Assembly: GCF_000024185.1 (NCBI RefSeq)
Contig: NC_013790.1
Span: 620,001 to 684,000, forward strand
Length of the DNA stretch: 64,000 bases
Origin: Methanobrevibacter ruminantium M1
Lineage (GTDB): Archaea; Methanobacteriota; Methanobacteria; Methanobacteriales; Methanobacteriaceae
Direction: 5' to 3'
Under the pieces are notes generated by a model. It ran no database searches and had not been told where the DNA came from. It saw only the letters and a list, made by a program, of their open reading frames with translations. The position numbers and the translations under genes were made by a program. This document shows positions 3,039 through 45,577 of the stretch, in pieces. Every line of letters starts with the position of its first letter. The stretch's first letter is position 1.

Positions 3039-3530
3039 TCTTTTAGATTAATTTTTTTCTCTTTTTTTTTATTTCAGACTATTCTTTATTTTTTTTATTT
3101 CTAACTACTATTTTTTTATTTTTTTATTTCAGATTATTTTTTTTTATTTTTAACTACTATTTTTTTTATTTTTTTATTTCAGAGTATTCTTTTATTATTT
3201 TTTTTATTTTTAACTACTATTTTTTTTATTTTTTTATTTCAGACTATTTAACATTGTTTTTTTATTTAAACTACTATTTTCCTTATTTTTTATAAAAATT
3301 CTTTTTAATTCTTACTTTAATTTTCTTAAATTGTATTTTATCTAATTAAATTTATTGTATATTCAATTTAAATTGATATCAGTTCTTTATTTCTTAATTG
3401 TAACATTTTATACCCTTTAAGTAACAAAATATTTAAATACTGGAAAGATAAAATTATATTTAACAAATAATTATTTTAAGTAAAATTTAAGAAAAAATAT
3501 TTTTTACTAAGGTTATAGAGGATGATTAAT
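3039..3530 (+). repeat. Four ~55-60 bp T-rich repeats after usp, then the mtrA leader
   Basis: This long gap holds four imperfect tandem copies of a unit containing ATTTCAG and AACTACTATTTTTTTATT. ATTTCAG occurs near 3071, 3126, 3176 and 3236; AACTACTAT near 3102, 3152, 3212 and 3269. No coding frame is convincing. The right part holds the probable mtrA promoter. Confidence 0.85.
3432..3441 (+). promoter_or_regulatory. Probable TATA box for mtrA
   Basis: TTTAAATACT matches the box A form seen before several genes here. The expected start of transcription is near 3462, leaving a leader of about 70 nt before the ATG at 3531. Confidence 0.45.
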
Positions 3531-4112
3531 ATGGCGGATAAAAAACCTACTGCAGAAAACTGGCCTGTTGTAAGTGGAGATTATATTGTAGGAGATCCAG
3601 AAAGCCCTGTTGCTGTAACCACATTGGCTTCTCACAATGAAGACATTCCTGCAGCTGCTGGCGCAGCCATTGCTGGACCTTGCAAGACTGAAAACCTTGG
3701 AATTGAAAAGGTTGTTGCAAACATCATTTCAAACCCTAACATAAGATTTTTGATTTTATGTGGTGCTGAAGTGCAAGGACACATTACAGGTCAAAGTTTT
3801 AAGGCATTATATGAAAACGGCTGTGACCCTGAGAAAAAGAAAATCACTGGAGCTACTGGAGCTATTCCTTTTGTAGAAAACATTCCAATGGAAGGTGTTG
3901 AACGATTCCAACAACAATTGGAACTTGTTGATATGATTGACAACGAAGACGGTGGAGCAATCACTGCAAAAGTTAAGGAATGCATAGAAAAAGATCCTGG
4001 TGCTTTTGAAGAGGATTCTTTAGTGATTAAGATTGATGAAGAAAGATATTCTAAAAAAAGCAGTTTTGTGGAATCTTCATCTGAAAGTGAAAAAATAGAA
4101 TCCGAAGCATAA
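3531..4112 (+). CDS. mtrA: MtrA-like corrinoid protein (methyl-H4MPT:CoM methyltransferase subunit A), soluble form
   Basis: MtrA carries the cobamide that moves the methyl group from tetrahydromethanopterin to coenzyme M. With the ATG at 3531 (MADKKPT, GAGG 9 bases upstream) the protein is 193 residues, and the histidine of VQGHITGQS falls at residue 84, the number known for the cobalt-ligating His84 of characterised MtrA. Membrane-bound MtrA ends in a transmembrane helix; here the C-terminus is hydrophilic and rich in Ser, Glu and Lys. No other mtr genes are adjacent, so this is best read as a stand-alone soluble MtrA paralogue. Its role cannot be fixed from sequence. Confidence 0.88.
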
Positions 4113-4492
4113 TTCTTAATTGAATTGGCCTATTTTTAATTTCTATTTTTTTTTATTCTTTTTTTTAATAAAAATAGTTTTTTTTAGGAATTATTTTTTT
4201 AATTCATCTATTTATTGTTCTTTTTTTATAAAAATAAGTATTTCTGCTCTTTTTTTAATAGAAATAGTTTTTTTTAGGAATTATTTTTTTAATTCATCTA
4301 TTTTTGCTCTTTTAAGAGGCATATTTTTTAAAAATAAGTATTCTTTTTTTAATAAACAAATTTCTTTTAAAGCATTAAAACAAATTTAAATGATGTCTGG
4401 TGTATTAAAATAAATTTAAGGGAGTTAAAACATTTAATAAGCTAAATAGAGTATATAGATTATTCAAATGATATGAACTTTAATTTATTAAA
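4113..4492 (+). repeat. Two ~90 bp T-rich repeats after mtrA
   Basis: A block starting TTTTTTAATA and containing AAATAGTTTTTTTTAGGAAT and AATTCATCTATTT occurs at about 4161-4213 and again at 4251-4303, a 90 bp period with very few mismatches; AAAAATAAGTA follows both copies. An open frame through this block is phenylalanine/isoleucine/serine filler produced by T runs. The rest of the gap, down to the convergent marR gene, is plain AT-rich DNA. Confidence 0.85.
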
Positions 4493-25472: not shown

Positions 25473-26051
25473 TTAATCTAATACTTTGCTTTTGATGATT
25501 TCTACTCTCTTTAAAGGATAGATTTTTTTAGCTTTGTGGTAAACTTCAGAAGCTAATCTACCGTTTACAGAGATTTCTACAAGTTCATCAAAGGTTTTTT
25601 CGCTAGCAACATTGCTAACTAATTCGGTAATGGTTTCTCTCATGTATTTTTGTTGGGAAGATTTAGCTCTTCTGGTGGTTACAGCTAATACATGGAGTTT
25701 TAATTTACGTTCATCTTGGGTGGTTACAATAACCGGAGCGTCGATTCTACTGGTTCCTCTTCTGATCATGCTTCTTACATAATCGGTAGTGGTCTTGTGT
25801 CCGGTAAATTTGGTGCTTGCAATGTCTCCTGCAACGTTGTCAACTTCAAATTGTAATTTGATGTATTGTTTGGAGAAGTCTCCGGTTAATTCTCTCATGG
25901 TTACTTCTACAGTTCTTCCGTATACAAGTTCTGGGTCTCTTGCAGGGGTGGTACCGATTTCCTTTTCTCCGAATGCTATAGGAGTTTTGATGGTGTACCA
26001 AGATTTTTCTTTCCAAGTGTCACGTACTCTACGTCTTTGTTTCTTTGCCAT
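25473..26051 (-). CDS. rps3ae: Ribosomal protein S3Ae (eS1)
   Basis: A small-subunit ribosomal protein found in archaea and eukaryotes. The 192-residue chain starts MAKKQRRRVRDTWKEKSWYTIKTP and contains the conserved KTTTDYVRSMIRRGTSRID segment and a basic C-terminal half ending YPLKRVEIIKSKVLD. The gene uses AAC, GGT and CGT-type codons more than its neighbours, as expected for high expression. GAGAGGAATGATATAA precedes the ATG. It stands alone as a ribosomal gene here. Confidence 0.96.
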   Translation of the reverse strand: MAKKQRRRVRDTWKEKSWYTIKTPIAFGEKEIGTTPARDPELVYGRTVEVTMRELTGDFSKQYIKLQFEVDNVAGDIASTKFTGHKTTTDYVRSMIRRGTSRIDAPVIVTTQDERKLKLHVLAVTTRRAKSSQQKYMRETITELVSNVASEKTFDELVEISVNGRLASEVYHKAKKIYPLKRVEIIKSKVLD

Positions 26052-26749
26052 TTATATCATTCCTCTCTTATTTTTTTGACGTAATTATCTTATAGAATAA
26101 TTAGTTGTTTTGTTTTTATAGTAAAACATAGCCACGGCTAATCTAGATTGAATTGATAGAAAATAGTGGGCTATGATTAAATTTATAATCCAAACTTAAT
26201 TTTAGTTTAGACAGTAAAAATATAATATTAAAAATCGCAGGTTATGGGCTAATGTCACTTAAGATATCTGAAGTGGCCTTTTGTTAAAAATAGATAGAAA
26301 ATAACTTATAAATTTTGATTATAAGTTCATATAGTTTTATAATCTATAGTTTGCCTGCTCTGGAATCAATCCATTGAATTTAAAATAATATCATAAAAGT
26401 TTTAAATAAGTTTAAAACCCGCCCATTAAGGTTATAGTTAGTTTTAATTTTCATAGTATTTAAATATTTTTAATATTTTAGTTTTTATTTTTGAAAATTT
26501 TAATTTTTTATAATCCTTTTAGGAATTTTTCTTTTTGATTAGGATATTATTTTTAAAATTTTCCTATCATTTTTGAAATAGTCTAAAGGTTTATATTTTA
26601 TAAGCAATATATGATTTTATAATTTCTTTTAGTTGCTTTAAAAAGATTTCTCTTATGGGAGATATTAATTGTTTTCGCTTAATAATTTATATCCTATGAA
26701 TGATATAAGTTCATAAAATTGCTTTTTATCGCCCCCTTGAAACTATAAT

Positions 26750-26759
26750 TTTAAATACT
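26750..26759 (+). promoter_or_regulatory. Probable TATA box of the amidotransferase gene
   Basis: TTTAAATACT lies 45 bases before the ATG at 26804, so transcription should start around 26779, inside the 16-nt palindrome that follows. Confidence 0.5.
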
Positions 26760-26767
26760 ATAAGGAA

Positions 26768-26783
26768 TATAACAATTGTTATA
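26768..26783 (+). promoter_or_regulatory. Perfect 16-nt palindrome at the expected transcription start
   Basis: TATAACAATTGTTATA is its own reverse complement. It sits between the TATA box and the GGAGG ribosome site, where a repressor would block initiation. The protein that binds it is unknown. Confidence 0.55.
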
Positions 26784-26803
26784 AAACTAATGGAGGTAAA
26801 AAT

Positions 26804-27607
26804 ATGTGTGAGATATTTGGATTCTCATCCTCTAGGGAAGAGGAATTAAATGATTATTTAAAGACATTTTTCAGTCATTGTGAAGAGCACCCTCACGGTT
26901 GGGGATTGGCTATTTTAGATTCAGATAAATATCAAATAAGAAAAGAACCGGTAAAGGCCCGAAGTAGTGTAATGTTAGGAAATATTTTATTAAATCCAAT
27001 AGTCTGTAAAAATATGCTTGCACATATAAGATTGGCTACGATAGGCAATTTGGATTTCTATAACTGCCATCCTTTTGTAAAGAAAGACAATTCAGATAGG
27101 AGATGGACTCTTATTCATAATGGAACTATCTTTGACTGCCAGGATCTTTGTAGATACAGTACAGAAGAGGAAGGGGAGACAGATTCCGAAAGGATATTGC
27201 TTTATATTGTAGATACAATCAATAATTATGAATCTGTAAAGGGAGAGCCTTTAAGCTTAAAGGAACGTTTTGATATAGTTTCCAGCTTGATTAAAGGAAT
27301 GTCCTGCACCAATAAGTTAAATCTTATGGTTTCAGATGGTGAGCAGATCTATGTTCACACTAATCTAAAGGATTCCCTTCATTATCTAAAGAAGGACCAT
27401 TCCATTTTCGTTTCAACACAGCCATTGGATGATGATGACTGGAAGGAGGTTCCATTAAATAAGACATTTTCAATCATTAACGGTGACGTATTGTTTGAAA
27501 GCGATTCACATTCAAATGAATATTTCGAAACAGAGGAACAGCTTAGATTCATTGAAAAGTTCTTAGAGTCATTAAAGACAGATTCAGATGAGGAGTACGC
27601 TTGGTAA
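26804..27607 (+). CDS. Class II glutamine amidotransferase-like protein (EgtC/YafJ type)
   Basis: A 267-residue Ntn-type amidohydrolase. The N-terminus MCEIFGF exposes Cys2 as nucleophile after Met removal; HGWGLAI, LAHIRLAT and LIHNGTI are the glutaminase-fold motifs of the GATase_4 group, which includes YafJ and EgtC. EgtC removes a gamma-glutamyl group in ergothioneine synthesis. Here the next two genes are gamma-glutamyl (glutamate-cysteine-type) ligases, so a gamma-glutamyl hydrolase or transferase role is a fair inference. No partner synthase domain is fused. TGGAGG precedes the ATG. Confidence 0.85.
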   Translation: MCEIFGFSSSREEELNDYLKTFFSHCEEHPHGWGLAILDSDKYQIRKEPVKARSSVMLGNILLNPIVCKNMLAHIRLATIGNLDFYNCHPFVKKDNSDRRWTLIHNGTIFDCQDLCRYSTEEEGETDSERILLYIVDTINNYESVKGEPLSLKERFDIVSSLIKGMSCTNKLNLMVSDGEQIYVHTNLKDSLHYLKKDHSIFVSTQPLDDDDWKEVPLNKTFSIINGDVLFESDSHSNEYFETEEQLRFIEKFLESLKTDSDEEYAW

Positions 27608-27632
27608 TGGGCTAGCGTATAGGGGAGATTTT

Positions 27633-29029
27633 ATGTGTAAAGATGGTATTAGCGATGAGGCATTAAGAGAAAAATTGTATCAAGCATTTTTAGAGCCTAC
27701 CAAAAAGGATAAAAAGGAATACATAGGCATTGAAATAGAGATGCCAATAATCAATCTTAACAAGGAAGCGGTAGACTTTAAAGTTGTTCATAAGGTCACT
27801 AGGGATTTCAGTGAGGAATTTGATAACTTTGAACTTGAAGGAATAGATTATGATGGAAACATCTATGCATTGAGAGATAAGGCTAGTGATGATATAATTT
27901 GCTATGGCTGCTCCTATAACAATATAGAATTTGCAATGGGAAAGGAAGAGAATCTTTTTTCTGTAAATGAGCGTTTCCTTAAATATTATTCATATTTTAA
28001 AGATAAGTTTGAAGAGCATGGACATACATTGACTGGAATGGGAATCAATCCATATAGAAAGTACAATAATGAGGTTCCGATTCCAAATGAAAGGTATCTT
28101 ATGCTTTTTCATCATCTAAAGTCTTCCTCTGACTATGTAGGAATGGAGTTTCACCAATATCCTGCTTATGGCATGTTTTCAAGCGCATCTCAGGTGCAAT
28201 TGGATGTTCCTTATGATGAATTGGTGGACAATATTAATGTCTTTTCAAAATTAGAGCCGATTAAAGCACTGCTTTTTTCAAATTCCGTTTTTTGGAAGAG
28301 AATGAAGACTATCTTTGCTTTAGAGATATCTTATGGGAATTCAGTACCCATGGCGTAAATCCTAAGAATATTGGAATGTATAATCAGGAATTTGAGGACA
28401 TTGATGAGCTGCTTTCCTATTTGGAGTCCTTAAATATCTATTGTGTTATGAGAGATGGGTTATATATTAATTTTCCTTCAATGGGGCTTAAGGAATTCTT
28501 CAGCAAGGACAAGATAACAGGAGAATACTATTGTAAGGGAGAATATAAGAAAAGGGAATTTGAACCCTCTTTGGATGATATTCAATATTTAAGAGCTTTT
28601 AAGTTTATCAATCTCACCTTTAGGGGAACAATTGAATATAGGAGCGTTTGTACTCAGCCAATTAAGGATTCCATGTCTGTTGCAGCATTCCATGTAGGTT
28701 TAAAGCATAAAACCGATGAATTGAATGAATTATTCTTAAAATCAGGCATTTATAAGAATGACTGCGATGCAAATGAGCTTAGAAAACTATTGATTAGAAG
28801 GGAAATTCCAGATTTCGTTGATATGGAAAAGATTTATGGATTGGCTTTGAAGGTTCTTGACTTGGCAAAAGAAGGATTGCTTGAAAGAGATTTGGGAGAA
28901 GAAGTTTTCTTAGACTCTTTGTATGATAATTTGAATAATAGGACCAATCCTGGAAAAAGACTTTTAGATTCATTAGATGGTGGAAAAAGCTTGGAAGAGA
29001 TTATTAAAGAGTATGGTGAAGTTGAATAG
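27633..29029 (+). pseudogene. Glutamate-cysteine ligase family (GCS2-like) gene interrupted by a frameshift
   Basis: Two overlapping frames make one family member. The first part, from the ATG at 27633 (GGGGAG upstream), has the substrate-site motif GIEIEMP and SASQVQLDV and runs to 28358 with a false tail. The second part opens near 28292 with EENEDYLCFRDILWE and carries FRGTIEYRS and the normal C-terminus. The switch needs one extra base in the six-T run at 28288-28293, which would read NSVFLEENED. It is either a real loss of function or an indel error in the sequence. The intact protein would be about 465 residues and would join glutamate to an amine such as cysteine. Confidence 0.8.
28288..28293 (+). 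other. Frameshift point in a T6 run
   Basis: Codons GTT TTT TGG lead into the wrong frame; adding one T gives GTT TTT TTG GAA and rejoins the family sequence. The site does not fit the usual slippery heptamer for programmed -1 shifting in this frame. Confidence 0.75.
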
Positions 29030-29141
29030 ATTATGGTTATTATGCTTATGTTTTAAGAGCATATTTATGTTTTAGGGTAGAATTAAACAATAAATTTATT
29101 TATTTAGGTAGAATTTATAATGCATTTAGTGGGGAGATAAA

Positions 29142-30566
29142 ATGGATAAAATATTTAATCTGTCGCAGATTAAAAATAATTTGAGCTCAGAGCAGCTAAA
29201 AGAAGGATCATTTGGGATTGAATGGGAATGCTTAAGGGTCAAGGAAAATGGAGAGCTCTCATTAAGTCCGCATCCTGAGATTTTTGGAGATAAGTTGACA
29301 AATCCATATATAACAACTGATTTTTCAGAGAGTCAAATAGAGATAATCACTCCAGCCTTTGATACAATAGATGAGGCTTTTTCATTCTTTTCATTCATGT
29401 CTGATCTGGTAAACAGTTCCCTATCAGATGATGAGTATCTTTGGTTTCAGTCATTGCCTTGCATACTTCCAGAGTCTGATAAAATCCCTATAGCCAAATA
29501 TAAAGGCAGAGGATTAGGGGAAGAATCTATGGAGTATAGAAAGGGTTTGGCTAAAAAGTATGGCCTTAAAAAACAGCTCATTTCAGGGATTCACTTTAAT
29601 TTTTCATTTAAGGAAGAGCTAATAGAAAGCTTCTATGATGGTGTCATTGGAGATAAGGAGAAGATTTCATATAAGGAATTTAAGGATAGTCTTTATTTAA
29701 AGATTTCACGTAATTATATTCGTTATGTATGGCTTATTATTTATCTTACTGGCTGTTCTGTTGCTGTTCATAATAGCTTTACTTTAGATTGTCAGAAATT
29801 GATGAATCATAAGGACAATCAGGGAAGCGTCTATAGTGATAGGGGGCCTTCATTTAGAAATTCCTCCTGCGGATATAAGAATTTAGAGCATTTGTATCCA
29901 AGTTATGCCTCTGTTGAAGAGTTTACAAGAGATATTCAATCATTTATTGATAATGGACATTTATCTGAGGCAAAGGAATTATACACTCAAATCAGATTGA
30001 AGCCAAGAAACCCTTCAGACCTTTTGGGTTCCTTGAATAATAACGGCATACAGTATTTGGAGATAAGGACATTGGACATTAATCCATTCTATAAATGTGG
30101 CCTTATTAAGAATGATATGAATTTCCTTCATATGTTTATGATCTATCTTCTAATTAAGGAAGAGTCTGATTATGAAAGCTGGCAGGAAGATGCTCTTTAT
30201 AATGAGGAAAAGACTGCTGAATGTGGATATGAAGATGGAGTTAAGCTTATTAAGGATGGCAAAGAGGTAGTTTTAAAGGATTGGGCCTTATCTATCTTGG
30301 ATGAAATGGAGATGATGGTTGAATCATTGAATCTTGAAAATAAGTCTGTTATAGAGTTGATGAAGTTAAAGATAATCAATTCAGACTTGACATATGGTAG
30401 GCGTCTTGCTCGGTTGGTGGAAAAGGATGGATATATTGAAAGCCAATTGAAGCTCTCTAGAAATAATAAGTTAAGAAGTAAGTATCTGGTTGAAGAGACC
30501 AATTTGCTAAATGATGAAAGGTTTAAAGAATATGTGCCTATTGCTCTTCAAGGATTGAGCAAATAG
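29142..30566 (+). CDS. gshA: Glutamate-cysteine ligase (GshA/GshAB N-terminal type)
   Basis: A 474-residue ATP-dependent ligase that should form gamma-glutamylcysteine. Motifs of the GshA fold are SFGIEWECLRV (near residue 23), ESQIEIITPAFDT (near 63), ISGIHFNFSF (near 147) and YLEIRTLDINPF (near 308), which match the GshA/GshF N-terminal module. There is no fused ATP-grasp glutathione synthetase domain. It is downstream of the GCS2-like gene and the EgtC-like gene, so three genes for gamma-glutamyl chemistry are clustered. Glutathione is not expected in methanogens. GGGGAGATAAA precedes the ATG. Confidence 0.88.
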   Translation: MDKIFNLSQIKNNLSSEQLKEGSFGIEWECLRVKENGELSLSPHPEIFGDKLTNPYITTDFSESQIEIITPAFDTIDEAFSFFSFMSDLVNSSLSDDEYLWFQSLPCILPESDKIPIAKYKGRGLGEESMEYRKGLAKKYGLKKQLISGIHFNFSFKEELIESFYDGVIGDKEKISYKEFKDSLYLKISRNYIRYVWLIIYLTGCSVAVHNSFTLDCQKLMNHKDNQGSVYSDRGPSFRNSSCGYKNLEHLYPSYASVEEFTRDIQSFIDNGHLSEAKELYTQIRLKPRNPSDLLGSLNNNGIQYLEIRTLDINPFYKCGLIKNDMNFLHMFMIYLLIKEESDYESWQEDALYNEEKTAECGYEDGVKLIKDGKEVVLKDWALSILDEMEMMVESLNLENKSVIELMKLKIINSDLTYGRRLARLVEKDGYIESQLKLSRNNKLRSKYLVEETNLLNDERFKEYVPIALQGLSK

Positions 30567-44674: not shown

Positions 44675-45577
44675 TTATTCTATTTTTCTAACTAAAACAG
44701 CAGGTGTATGAATAATTGAATCCAAGGATTCTACAGTAACTTCAGGAGTGTCTGAATTTAAAACGTCCTTTGCGCTATAGATTGTCTCCATTGCTGTAGA
44801 TAATGATTTCTGATAGTCTTCAGCAATATTGGCTATTTTTATTCCCTCTTCAACAGAGATTTCCCTTGAGCATCCAAGTGGGGTGGATCCCATATTTTCA
44901 GACAATTGTCCTAACGCGTATCCAAAAACTCCCTTATCTGCTTCAATTCCATCTATTGCAATAGGAAGTCCTGTAAAGTATTTGTTCTTTCTTCTATAGG
45001 TTGCATCTGTGTCAATAATTAATGTGGTGACATCTTGATTTGTTTTTTCCATAAGGCTTTCGCTGATTTCCTTTGCAACCTTTTCTGGATTTTCGGGAAG
45101 AAGGGATACGCAAGTTCCCGGAGCATTGCTTAAGTCAATTCCCGCTTCTGAAGCTGGCTTTAATGCATGTTTCCAACCATATAATTGGAGAACAACTTCC
45201 TTATGTCTTTTAGACTCTTCTGGAAGTTTTCTAAGGTTTTTAATTGTTCTCTCCTTTATTCCTAGAATAGGTCCAAGGACATATCCCCAAAAGTATTTGC
45301 TCCAATATGTGGCTAGGAATTTTGCCTTAAGGGATGGAGTATAGTCTGCTTCATCAACCAATCTTCCTTGAGAGACTGATATTGGAGTTTCGGCTATTAC
45401 TAAATAGTCGCCGGACTTGCATAATTTTGAGATGTCATCAATCATAAAGTCTATGCTTTCATTAGGCTTTATATAATGTGTTTCAATAGGGATAACTTGA
45501 TATCCTCTAATCTCAACATATTTGTAAACTTGTCCTTGCTCAGTTTCTGCTTCTTTATAGTTTGGATTGTCTGTCAT
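44675..45577 (-). CDS. Coenzyme F420 gamma-glutamyl ligase (CofE)-like protein
   Basis: A 300-residue protein with the F420-ligase fold. It reads GDYLVIAETPISVSQGRLV near residue 57, TTLIIDTDATYRRKN near 200 and GIEADKGVFGYALGQLSEN near 225, resembling COG1478-type F420-0:glutamate ligases. It is longer than canonical CofE (about 250) and has extra segments, for example the YWSKYFWGYVLGPILG stretch near 95, so it is probably a paralogue and not the main F420 enzyme. It may act on another gamma-glutamyl acceptor. The ribosome site is not obvious. Confidence 0.6.
   Translation of the reverse strand: MTDNPNYKEAETEQGQVYKYVEIRGYQVIPIETHYIKPNESIDFMIDDISKLCKSGDYLVIAETPISVSQGRLVDEADYTPSLKAKFLATYWSKYFWGYVLGPILGIKERTIKNLRKLPEESKRHKEVVLQLYGWKHALKPASEAGIDLSNAPGTCVSLLPENPEKVAKEISESLMEKTNQDVTTLIIDTDATYRRKNKYFTGLPIAIDGIEADKGVFGYALGQLSENMGSTPLGCSREISVEEGIKIANIAEDYQKSLSTAMETIYSAKDVLNSDTPEVTVESLDSIIHTPAVLVRKIE

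Follow-up and report, generated by a model that had tools for sequence, protein, structure and literature searches.

Three consecutive genes on the plus strand of Methanobrevibacter ruminantium M1 encode a stand-alone protein of the class II N-terminal nucleophile (Ntn) glutamine-amidotransferase fold (GAT), a ligase of the plant-type glutamate-cysteine-ligase fold (GCS2) and a gamma-glutamate-cysteine ligase (GshA). They lie in a 64,000-nucleotide stretch (the window, in which positions are counted from the first letter) of NC_013790.1, positions 620,001 to 684,000, the genome being a single contig of 2,937,203 bases. With a probability of roughly 0.6 the trio represents an ATP-driven module that makes and hydrolyses gamma-glutamylcysteine, and a function in the storage or buffering of cysteine in microbes without glutathione is proposed with moderate confidence. 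The three genes occur together far more often than chance would allow; the gene content, folds, catalytic residues, co-location, a ligase fusion, the cysteine-operon context and the GshA lineages on which this proposal is built were all computed directly.

The three proteins and their catalytic residues

GshA (29142-30566, plus strand, 474 amino acids) matches PF04262 with 314.7 bits (cut-off 27; 8e-94). Its best curated model is the bifunctional GshAB (PRK02471), with 410.2 bits below the cut-off of 425 and an alignment restricted to model positions 6-416 of 756, so that neither in length nor in score does it qualify as a GshF/GshAB enzyme; it is akin to the GshF N-terminal half and has no glutathione-synthetase part. 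In E. coli numbering, Glu27, Asp60, Glu67, Tyr131, Arg132, Leu135, Gln144, His150, Arg235, Tyr241, Tyr300, Glu328 and Arg330, which belong to the metal, glutamate and cysteine-pocket residues of the E. coli enzyme, are kept at 13/13 positions in 11/11 methanogen rows, while the clostridial GshA proteins have the same letter at 12/13 positions, with Gln144 replaced by Met. This pocket, together with the sulfur-gene neighbourhoods described below, argues strongly for cysteine as the acceptor and for gamma-glutamylcysteine as the predicted product. As for a separate GshB, the genome holds one 23.2-bit partial match to PF02955 over 69 residues, probably another ATP-grasp protein; the same model also matches control archaea and B. 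subtilis.

GAT (26804-27607, plus strand, 267 amino acids) matches PF13230 (105 bits, cut-off 23; 4e-30) and carries the catalytic Cys2 that the initial annotation had pointed out. Its best named model, EgtC (TIGR03442), scores 64.7 bits, below the cut-off of 218.65. Cys2, Arg76, Thr79, Asn106, Gly107 and Asp127 do not vary among 27 archaeal and clostridial proteins and line up with the GlmS residues that hold a free gamma-glutamyl group. The AlphaFold2 model (pLDDT 91.5) finds 1te5 and EgtC (4zfj) as the best folds in the PDB (Foldseek, probability 1.00), followed by the glutaminase domains of GlmS and PurF. A cysteine following the initiator methionine, the Arg/Asn-Gly/Asp set and the fold thus all identify a class II Ntn glutamine-amidotransferase-fold protein. 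As GAT has the stand-alone, EgtC-like form and is also found paired with GshA alone, which needs no ammonia, it is predicted with moderate confidence to be a gamma-glutamyl amide hydrolase and not an ammonia donor.

The GCS2 gene is read in two frames, as had been noticed initially, while in relatives a single frame encodes one protein of about 460-485 amino acids. The N-terminal part (27633-28358, plus strand; open reading frame listed from 27588) leaves the frame near 28290, where a T-run at 28288-28296 is one base shorter than the frame of the relatives demands, and the C-terminal part (28292-29029, plus strand; TIGR01436, 4e-7) continues in the next frame. A programmed frameshift was considered and is unsupported, as the relatives read the stretch in one frame. 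Compared with the nearest relative, G027, the ratio of non-synonymous to synonymous substitution (dN/dS, with dS near saturation) comes to 0.06 in the N-terminal and 0.10 in the C-terminal part of GCS2, alongside 0.05 for GAT and 0.07 for GshA. Both halves are therefore under purifying selection, so the gene was selected until recently, and the break may be recent, a sequence error or bypassed. With GCS2 looking broken, the working set of M. ruminantium M1 may be GshA and GAT, as in those relatives that have only these two genes.

The plant glutamate-cysteine ligase model TIGR01436 (cut-off 463) gives 28.8 bits with the GCS2 half from the window and 51.9 bits with a clostridial protein, and PF04107 gives 22 bits with the nearest intact relative (cut-off 21) and matches only 2/10 members. 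A profile search retrieves plant glutamate-cysteine ligases at 1e-14, and when the structure of the closest relative with an intact gene was modelled (pLDDT 83), the plant enzyme 2gwc gave the best fit (TM scores of 0.75-0.81), with YbdK and E. coli GshA ranking behind it. Sequence identity to the plant enzyme is about 20%, and alphaproteobacterial plasmid copies of GCS2 are 22-26% identical. As in GshA, the catalytic residues are kept, the lack of glutamate- or ATP-binding residues having been named by the initial annotation as evidence against its reading: Glu34/Glu36, Gln188, Asp192, Asn218/Ser219, Arg232, Trp236, Glu336 and Arg338 show no variation across 26 rows, several of them falling on conserved motifs of the plant enzyme in the profile alignment. 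Cysteine or a cysteine peptide is suggested as the acceptor of GCS2 with moderate to weak confidence.

Distribution in methanogens and gut Clostridia

Among 139 Methanobacteriaceae genomes, which are related, so that p values are indicative only, full-strength GAT, GCS2 and GshA genes are present in 81, 77 and 83, respectively, the named relatives being mostly rumen Methanobrevibacter. No genome possesses GAT without any ligase, and co-occurrence is pronounced for GAT with GCS2 (Fisher p 7e-32) and for GAT with GshA (2e-26). At 72/77 places no more than 300 bp separate GCS2 from GAT, and GCS2 is found without GAT only in G005, whose contig begins about 350 bp upstream; both ligases are retained in 72 of the 83 genomes with GshA. 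Contiguous trios occur at 52 places, while at six places GAT adjoins GshA without GCS2 (for example in G007, G008 and G031; also at L210). The scattering in related genomes which, according to the initial annotation, would speak against a functional cluster is thus absent from most relatives and seen in the Methanosphaera-type genomes G109 and G114; the operon arrangement is a preference rather than a rule. The distribution is patchy even within the genus, and among 152 genomes of the phylum none beyond the family yielded GCS2. Methanosphaera-type loci show one or two glutathione-peroxidase-like (GPx-like) genes and a flavodoxin-like gene followed by GAT and GCS2 on one strand; here and below, the labels flavodoxin-like, GPx-like, LysR, FdhD-like, LarE-like and ThiF-like were read from the sequences and not assigned by family search.

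The cluster is shared with bacteria. Scanning one genome per species located relatives of GCS2 (about 51-59% identity) and GAT (about 41-51%) in Ruminococcus, Lachnospiraceae and other rumen and gut Clostridia. In an even draw of the class GCS2 is rare (about 7/341 genomes), and in the clostridial sample 6/7 of the genomes with GCS2 also have the short GshA, which is present in 9/332 genomes (p 3e-10); where GshA does not adjoin clostridial GCS2, the genome mostly has it elsewhere. The gene order takes at least three forms, GshA-GAT-GCS2, the commonest, GCS2-GshA-GAT and GAT-GCS2-GshA, and at one locus (L155, one genome) GCS2 and GshA are fused into an 887-amino-acid protein adjoining GAT, the junction having been read directly in the DNA. 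Frequent neighbours are Rrf2 regulators, CysK-type PALP-family proteins, O-acetylhomoserine sulfhydrylase (scoring over its cut-off), LysR regulators and cystathionine-lyase-like proteins, and once a thioredoxin-reductase-like protein. The Rrf2 regulator matches its superfamily with 128 bits (cut-off 73.3), and its best specific NCBIfam model is CymR, with 118.5 bits below the cut-off of 195. The sharing with Clostridia, the setting among cysteine and methionine sulfur genes and the fusion of the two ligases had not been foreseen by the initial annotation.

According to the GshA tree, the methanogen sequences group into a single clade with full support, which falls on the GshF side; the clostridial trio proteins make up a separate clade, divided from it by 100/100 branches. 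As these clades lie on different sides, two GshA lineages joined the GAT-GCS2 pair, which indicates that methanogens and Clostridia recruited their GshA partner from different lineages. One stand-alone clostridial GshA, with no GAT beside it, is sister to the methanogen clade with moderate support (91/81). In the GCS2 tree, obtained by a quick method and rooted on distant clostridial proteins, archaeal rows are interspersed with clostridial rows at two or more positions, the support being moderate. Transfer from bacteria to methanogens is likely, the number and direction of transfers being not proven. The distant clostridial GCS2 homologues were not counted as trio members, having neither GAT nor GshA beside them, and served as the outgroup only.

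With respect to the locus itself, the three genes are consecutive on the plus strand in both open reading frames and family matches, as first described. Read from the sequence, gaps of about 25 bp separate GAT from GCS2 and of about 112 bp GCS2 from GshA, and sequences resembling ribosome-binding sites stand before GAT (GGAGG), the likely GCS2 ATG at 27633 (GGGGAG) and GshA (GGGGAG). Upstream, beyond a gap of 752 bp (26052-26803), the gene for ribosomal protein S3Ae (25473-26051, minus strand, family match) diverges from the operon; downstream follow a small NifX-like protein (PF02579; 30676-31014, minus strand, family match), which is not claimed as a member of the set, and a ClC-type channel gene on the minus strand. 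A NifX-like gene adjoins the trio in several genera in varying orientation (for example L057 and L075). No known RNA regulator was found over threshold in the window.

Several further observations concern individual loci. In G074 (C15; L157) and G086 (C45; L156) long frames had suggested a GAT-GCS2 fusion, which was rejected as there are two open reading frames in the same frame, parted by a stop codon and about one codon. A decayed GAT with many stops stands beside an intact GshA in G040 (C55, 23254-23930), an instance of ongoing loss of the hydrolase. In two Lachnospiraceae a 206-amino-acid C39-peptidase-like protein with a YDCGPT motif is encoded beside trio genes (L113, 7419-8036; L115, 2665-3285), the L113 protein being without Pfam or NCBIfam match, and in L115 an M20 peptidase (PepT-like; 3304-4425) with a faint likeness to Dug1 of yeast glutathione breakdown lies between GAT and GCS2. 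Some metagenome-assembled genomes (MAGs) probably carry foreign contigs. Two separate GAT-ligase units in G018 were discounted, as the GCS2 contig is 99.9% identical to a Methanosphaera MAG contig and probably a contamination; a 13-kb stretch is 99.9% identical between the MAGs of a Methanosphaera and of Methanobrevibacter olleyae (L100/L101), probably by cross-contamination. A second GshA in G079 was set aside, since its contig (C5; L215) in this Methanobrevibacter MAG looks part archaeal and part Firmicutes, with a clostridial-type GshA, which points to probable contamination or misassembly. A MAG labelled 'Bacillales' (L058) has an archaeal GCS2 contig that agrees to about 97% with a contig (L060) of a Methanobacteriaceae MAG, the former MAG being mislabelled or contaminated.

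A proposed gamma-glutamylcysteine module and its alternatives

In the favoured reading, GshA, joined by GCS2 in most relatives, would use ATP to couple the gamma-carboxyl group of glutamate to cysteine, yielding gamma-glutamylcysteine, a form of cysteine that would be less reactive and oxidised more slowly. GAT, acting like the Ntn hydrolases EgtC and Dug3, would cut the gamma-glutamyl bond and return glutamate and cysteine, so that the module would hold, buffer and release cysteine and possibly supply thiol-dependent removal of peroxide. Of the initially proposed operon for a gamma-glutamyl thiol or peptide serving in oxygen stress or metal buffering, the combination of ligases and amidohydrolase is borne out, oxygen stress receives indirect support through the GPx-like and flavodoxin-like neighbours of the Methanosphaera-type loci, and nothing speaks for metal buffering.

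Several observations weigh against this assignment. Making and breaking the same compound within one operon amounts to a futile cycle unless regulated, and neither a cysteine T-box nor another known riboswitch was found over threshold at the clostridial loci. Six genomes of the family, among them G040 with its decayed GAT, possess GshA without GAT, the trio is dispersed in some Methanosphaera-type genomes (G109 and G114), and GCS2 is broken in M. ruminantium M1 itself. In an early survey, as cited in PMC7278568, gamma-glutamylcysteine was undetected in five unidentified methanogens. Lastly, fusing two ligases of the same reaction would be odd and points to a different activity of GCS2.

The last point leads to a possible, if doubtful, division of labour in which GshA makes gamma-glutamylcysteine, GCS2 glutamylates a second amino acid or gamma-glutamylcysteine, and GAT recycles the products. 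The fused protein fits such a division, and so does the fact that most genomes with GshA have kept both ligases; both run contrary to simple redundancy and leave real room for a second acceptor. In its favour is also the low identity of GCS2 to the plant ligase, whereas the closest fold of GCS2 is precisely this plant-type enzyme, which uses cysteine, and some genomes manage with GAT and one ligase only. More tentatively still, ligases acting in series or with different acceptors, followed by trimming by GAT, might produce an undescribed gamma-glutamyl thiol or peptide as a glutathione substitute of gut methanogens and Clostridia. Protection by a gamma-glutamyl group is an established strategy (EgtA/EgtC, PuuA/PuuD), and the thiol of gamma-glutamylcysteine might be attached elsewhere to another molecule, with GAT removing the protecting group to give a new cysteine-derived compound. 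EgtC being the second-best fold match of GAT and the constant company of GCS2 and GAT, save where a contig starts just upstream, agree with such a pathway; as methanogens and Clostridia share no conserved third enzyme of synthesis next to the trio and EgtD was not found in the genome, it is considered unlikely.

It is very improbable that GAT works as a true amidotransferase, splitting glutamine and passing ammonia to GCS2 for amidation of the gamma-glutamyl carboxylate. Proteins of the GAT fold are commonly paired with synthetases, and GAT-GCS2 is the tightest pair of the trio, but GAT is found with GshA alone, too, its closest folds outside multidomain synthases are stand-alone hydrolases, and ligases of the glutamate-cysteine type activate glutamate itself, so that ammonia would merely remake glutamine. 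A chance or neutral clustering of unrelated genes, to which the dispersed Methanosphaera-type genes might point, is hardly credible in view of shuffled gene orders, a fusion and two GshA lineages across two domains of life.

The low-molecular-weight thiols of gut methanogens and many gut Clostridia are poorly known, and a conserved, probably transferred module of two gamma-glutamyl ligases that differ in detail and a predicted dedicated hydrolase makes the question testable. The proposed module predicts gamma-glutamylcysteine or a relative of it in carrier cells. It would further give a stand-alone enzyme of the class II amidotransferase fold a new biological role and imply a rumen cysteine-control point common to two domains of life. 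The M. ruminantium genome paper mentions neither glutathione nor gamma-glutamylcysteine nor glutamate-cysteine ligase, and no report of GAT or GCS2 with GshA, or of the ligase fusion, was found in a literature that comprised few of the subscription journals, so that novelty is not proven.

Relation to known gamma-glutamyl systems

The initial annotation had also mentioned a CofE-like paralogue in the window. The PF01996 protein encoded at 44675-45577 on the minus strand falls far short of CofE by either model, with 57.6 bits for a cut-off of 274 and 53.5 bits for one of 180.65, lies about 14 kb away and does not stand beside the trio in those stretches of relatives that were read; it was therefore rejected as a cluster member and represents a divergent protein of the F420 ligase family, a separate gamma-glutamyl-ligase-like paralogue.

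On the other hand, the exclusion of the standard ergothioneine route, proposed from the start, holds. EgtD (PF10017) has no match in the complete genome, and with GAT well below the EgtC cut-off, ergothioneine synthesis by the trio was rejected. The likeness to EgtA/EgtC lies in the combination of a GCS2-superfamily ligase with a Cys2 class II Ntn hydrolase that folds like EgtC, whereas, besides the EgtC score and the lack of an EgtD match, the trio GCS2 came out nearer to the plant ligase than to any EgtA when structures were searched. With the plant and alphaproteobacterial type of glutamate-cysteine ligase GCS2 shares fold and motifs (2gwc), but it stays below the TIGR01436 cut-off, and the trio subfamily is tied to GAT, while distant clostridial GCS2 proteins stand alone.

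According to its title, the work of Kaur et al. (2012; in PMC7340319) concerns a Dug3-type class II glutamine amidotransferase that removes the gamma-glutamyl group from a thiol peptide. GAT would resemble yeast Dug2-Dug3 by its predicted reaction; Dug3, however, acts with Dug2 on glutathione, whereas GAT is partnered by ligases, and the conserved neighbours of the trio include nothing like Dug2.

A close parallel is seen in the haloarchaea, which have gamma-glutamylcysteine as a thiol without glutathione and use a disulfide reductase, and a 2020 review lists the GshA proteins of Methanosphaera and Methanobrevibacter (M. ruminantium) as gamma-glutamylcysteine ligases without the synthetase half (PMC7278568). 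Alike in both systems is a GshA without a GshB domain, with the catalytic and cysteine-pocket residues kept in the methanogen protein; the haloarchaeal system as described (PMC7278568) includes the disulfide reductase, with GAT unmentioned, whereas the trio instead combines GshA with a second ligase family and GAT.

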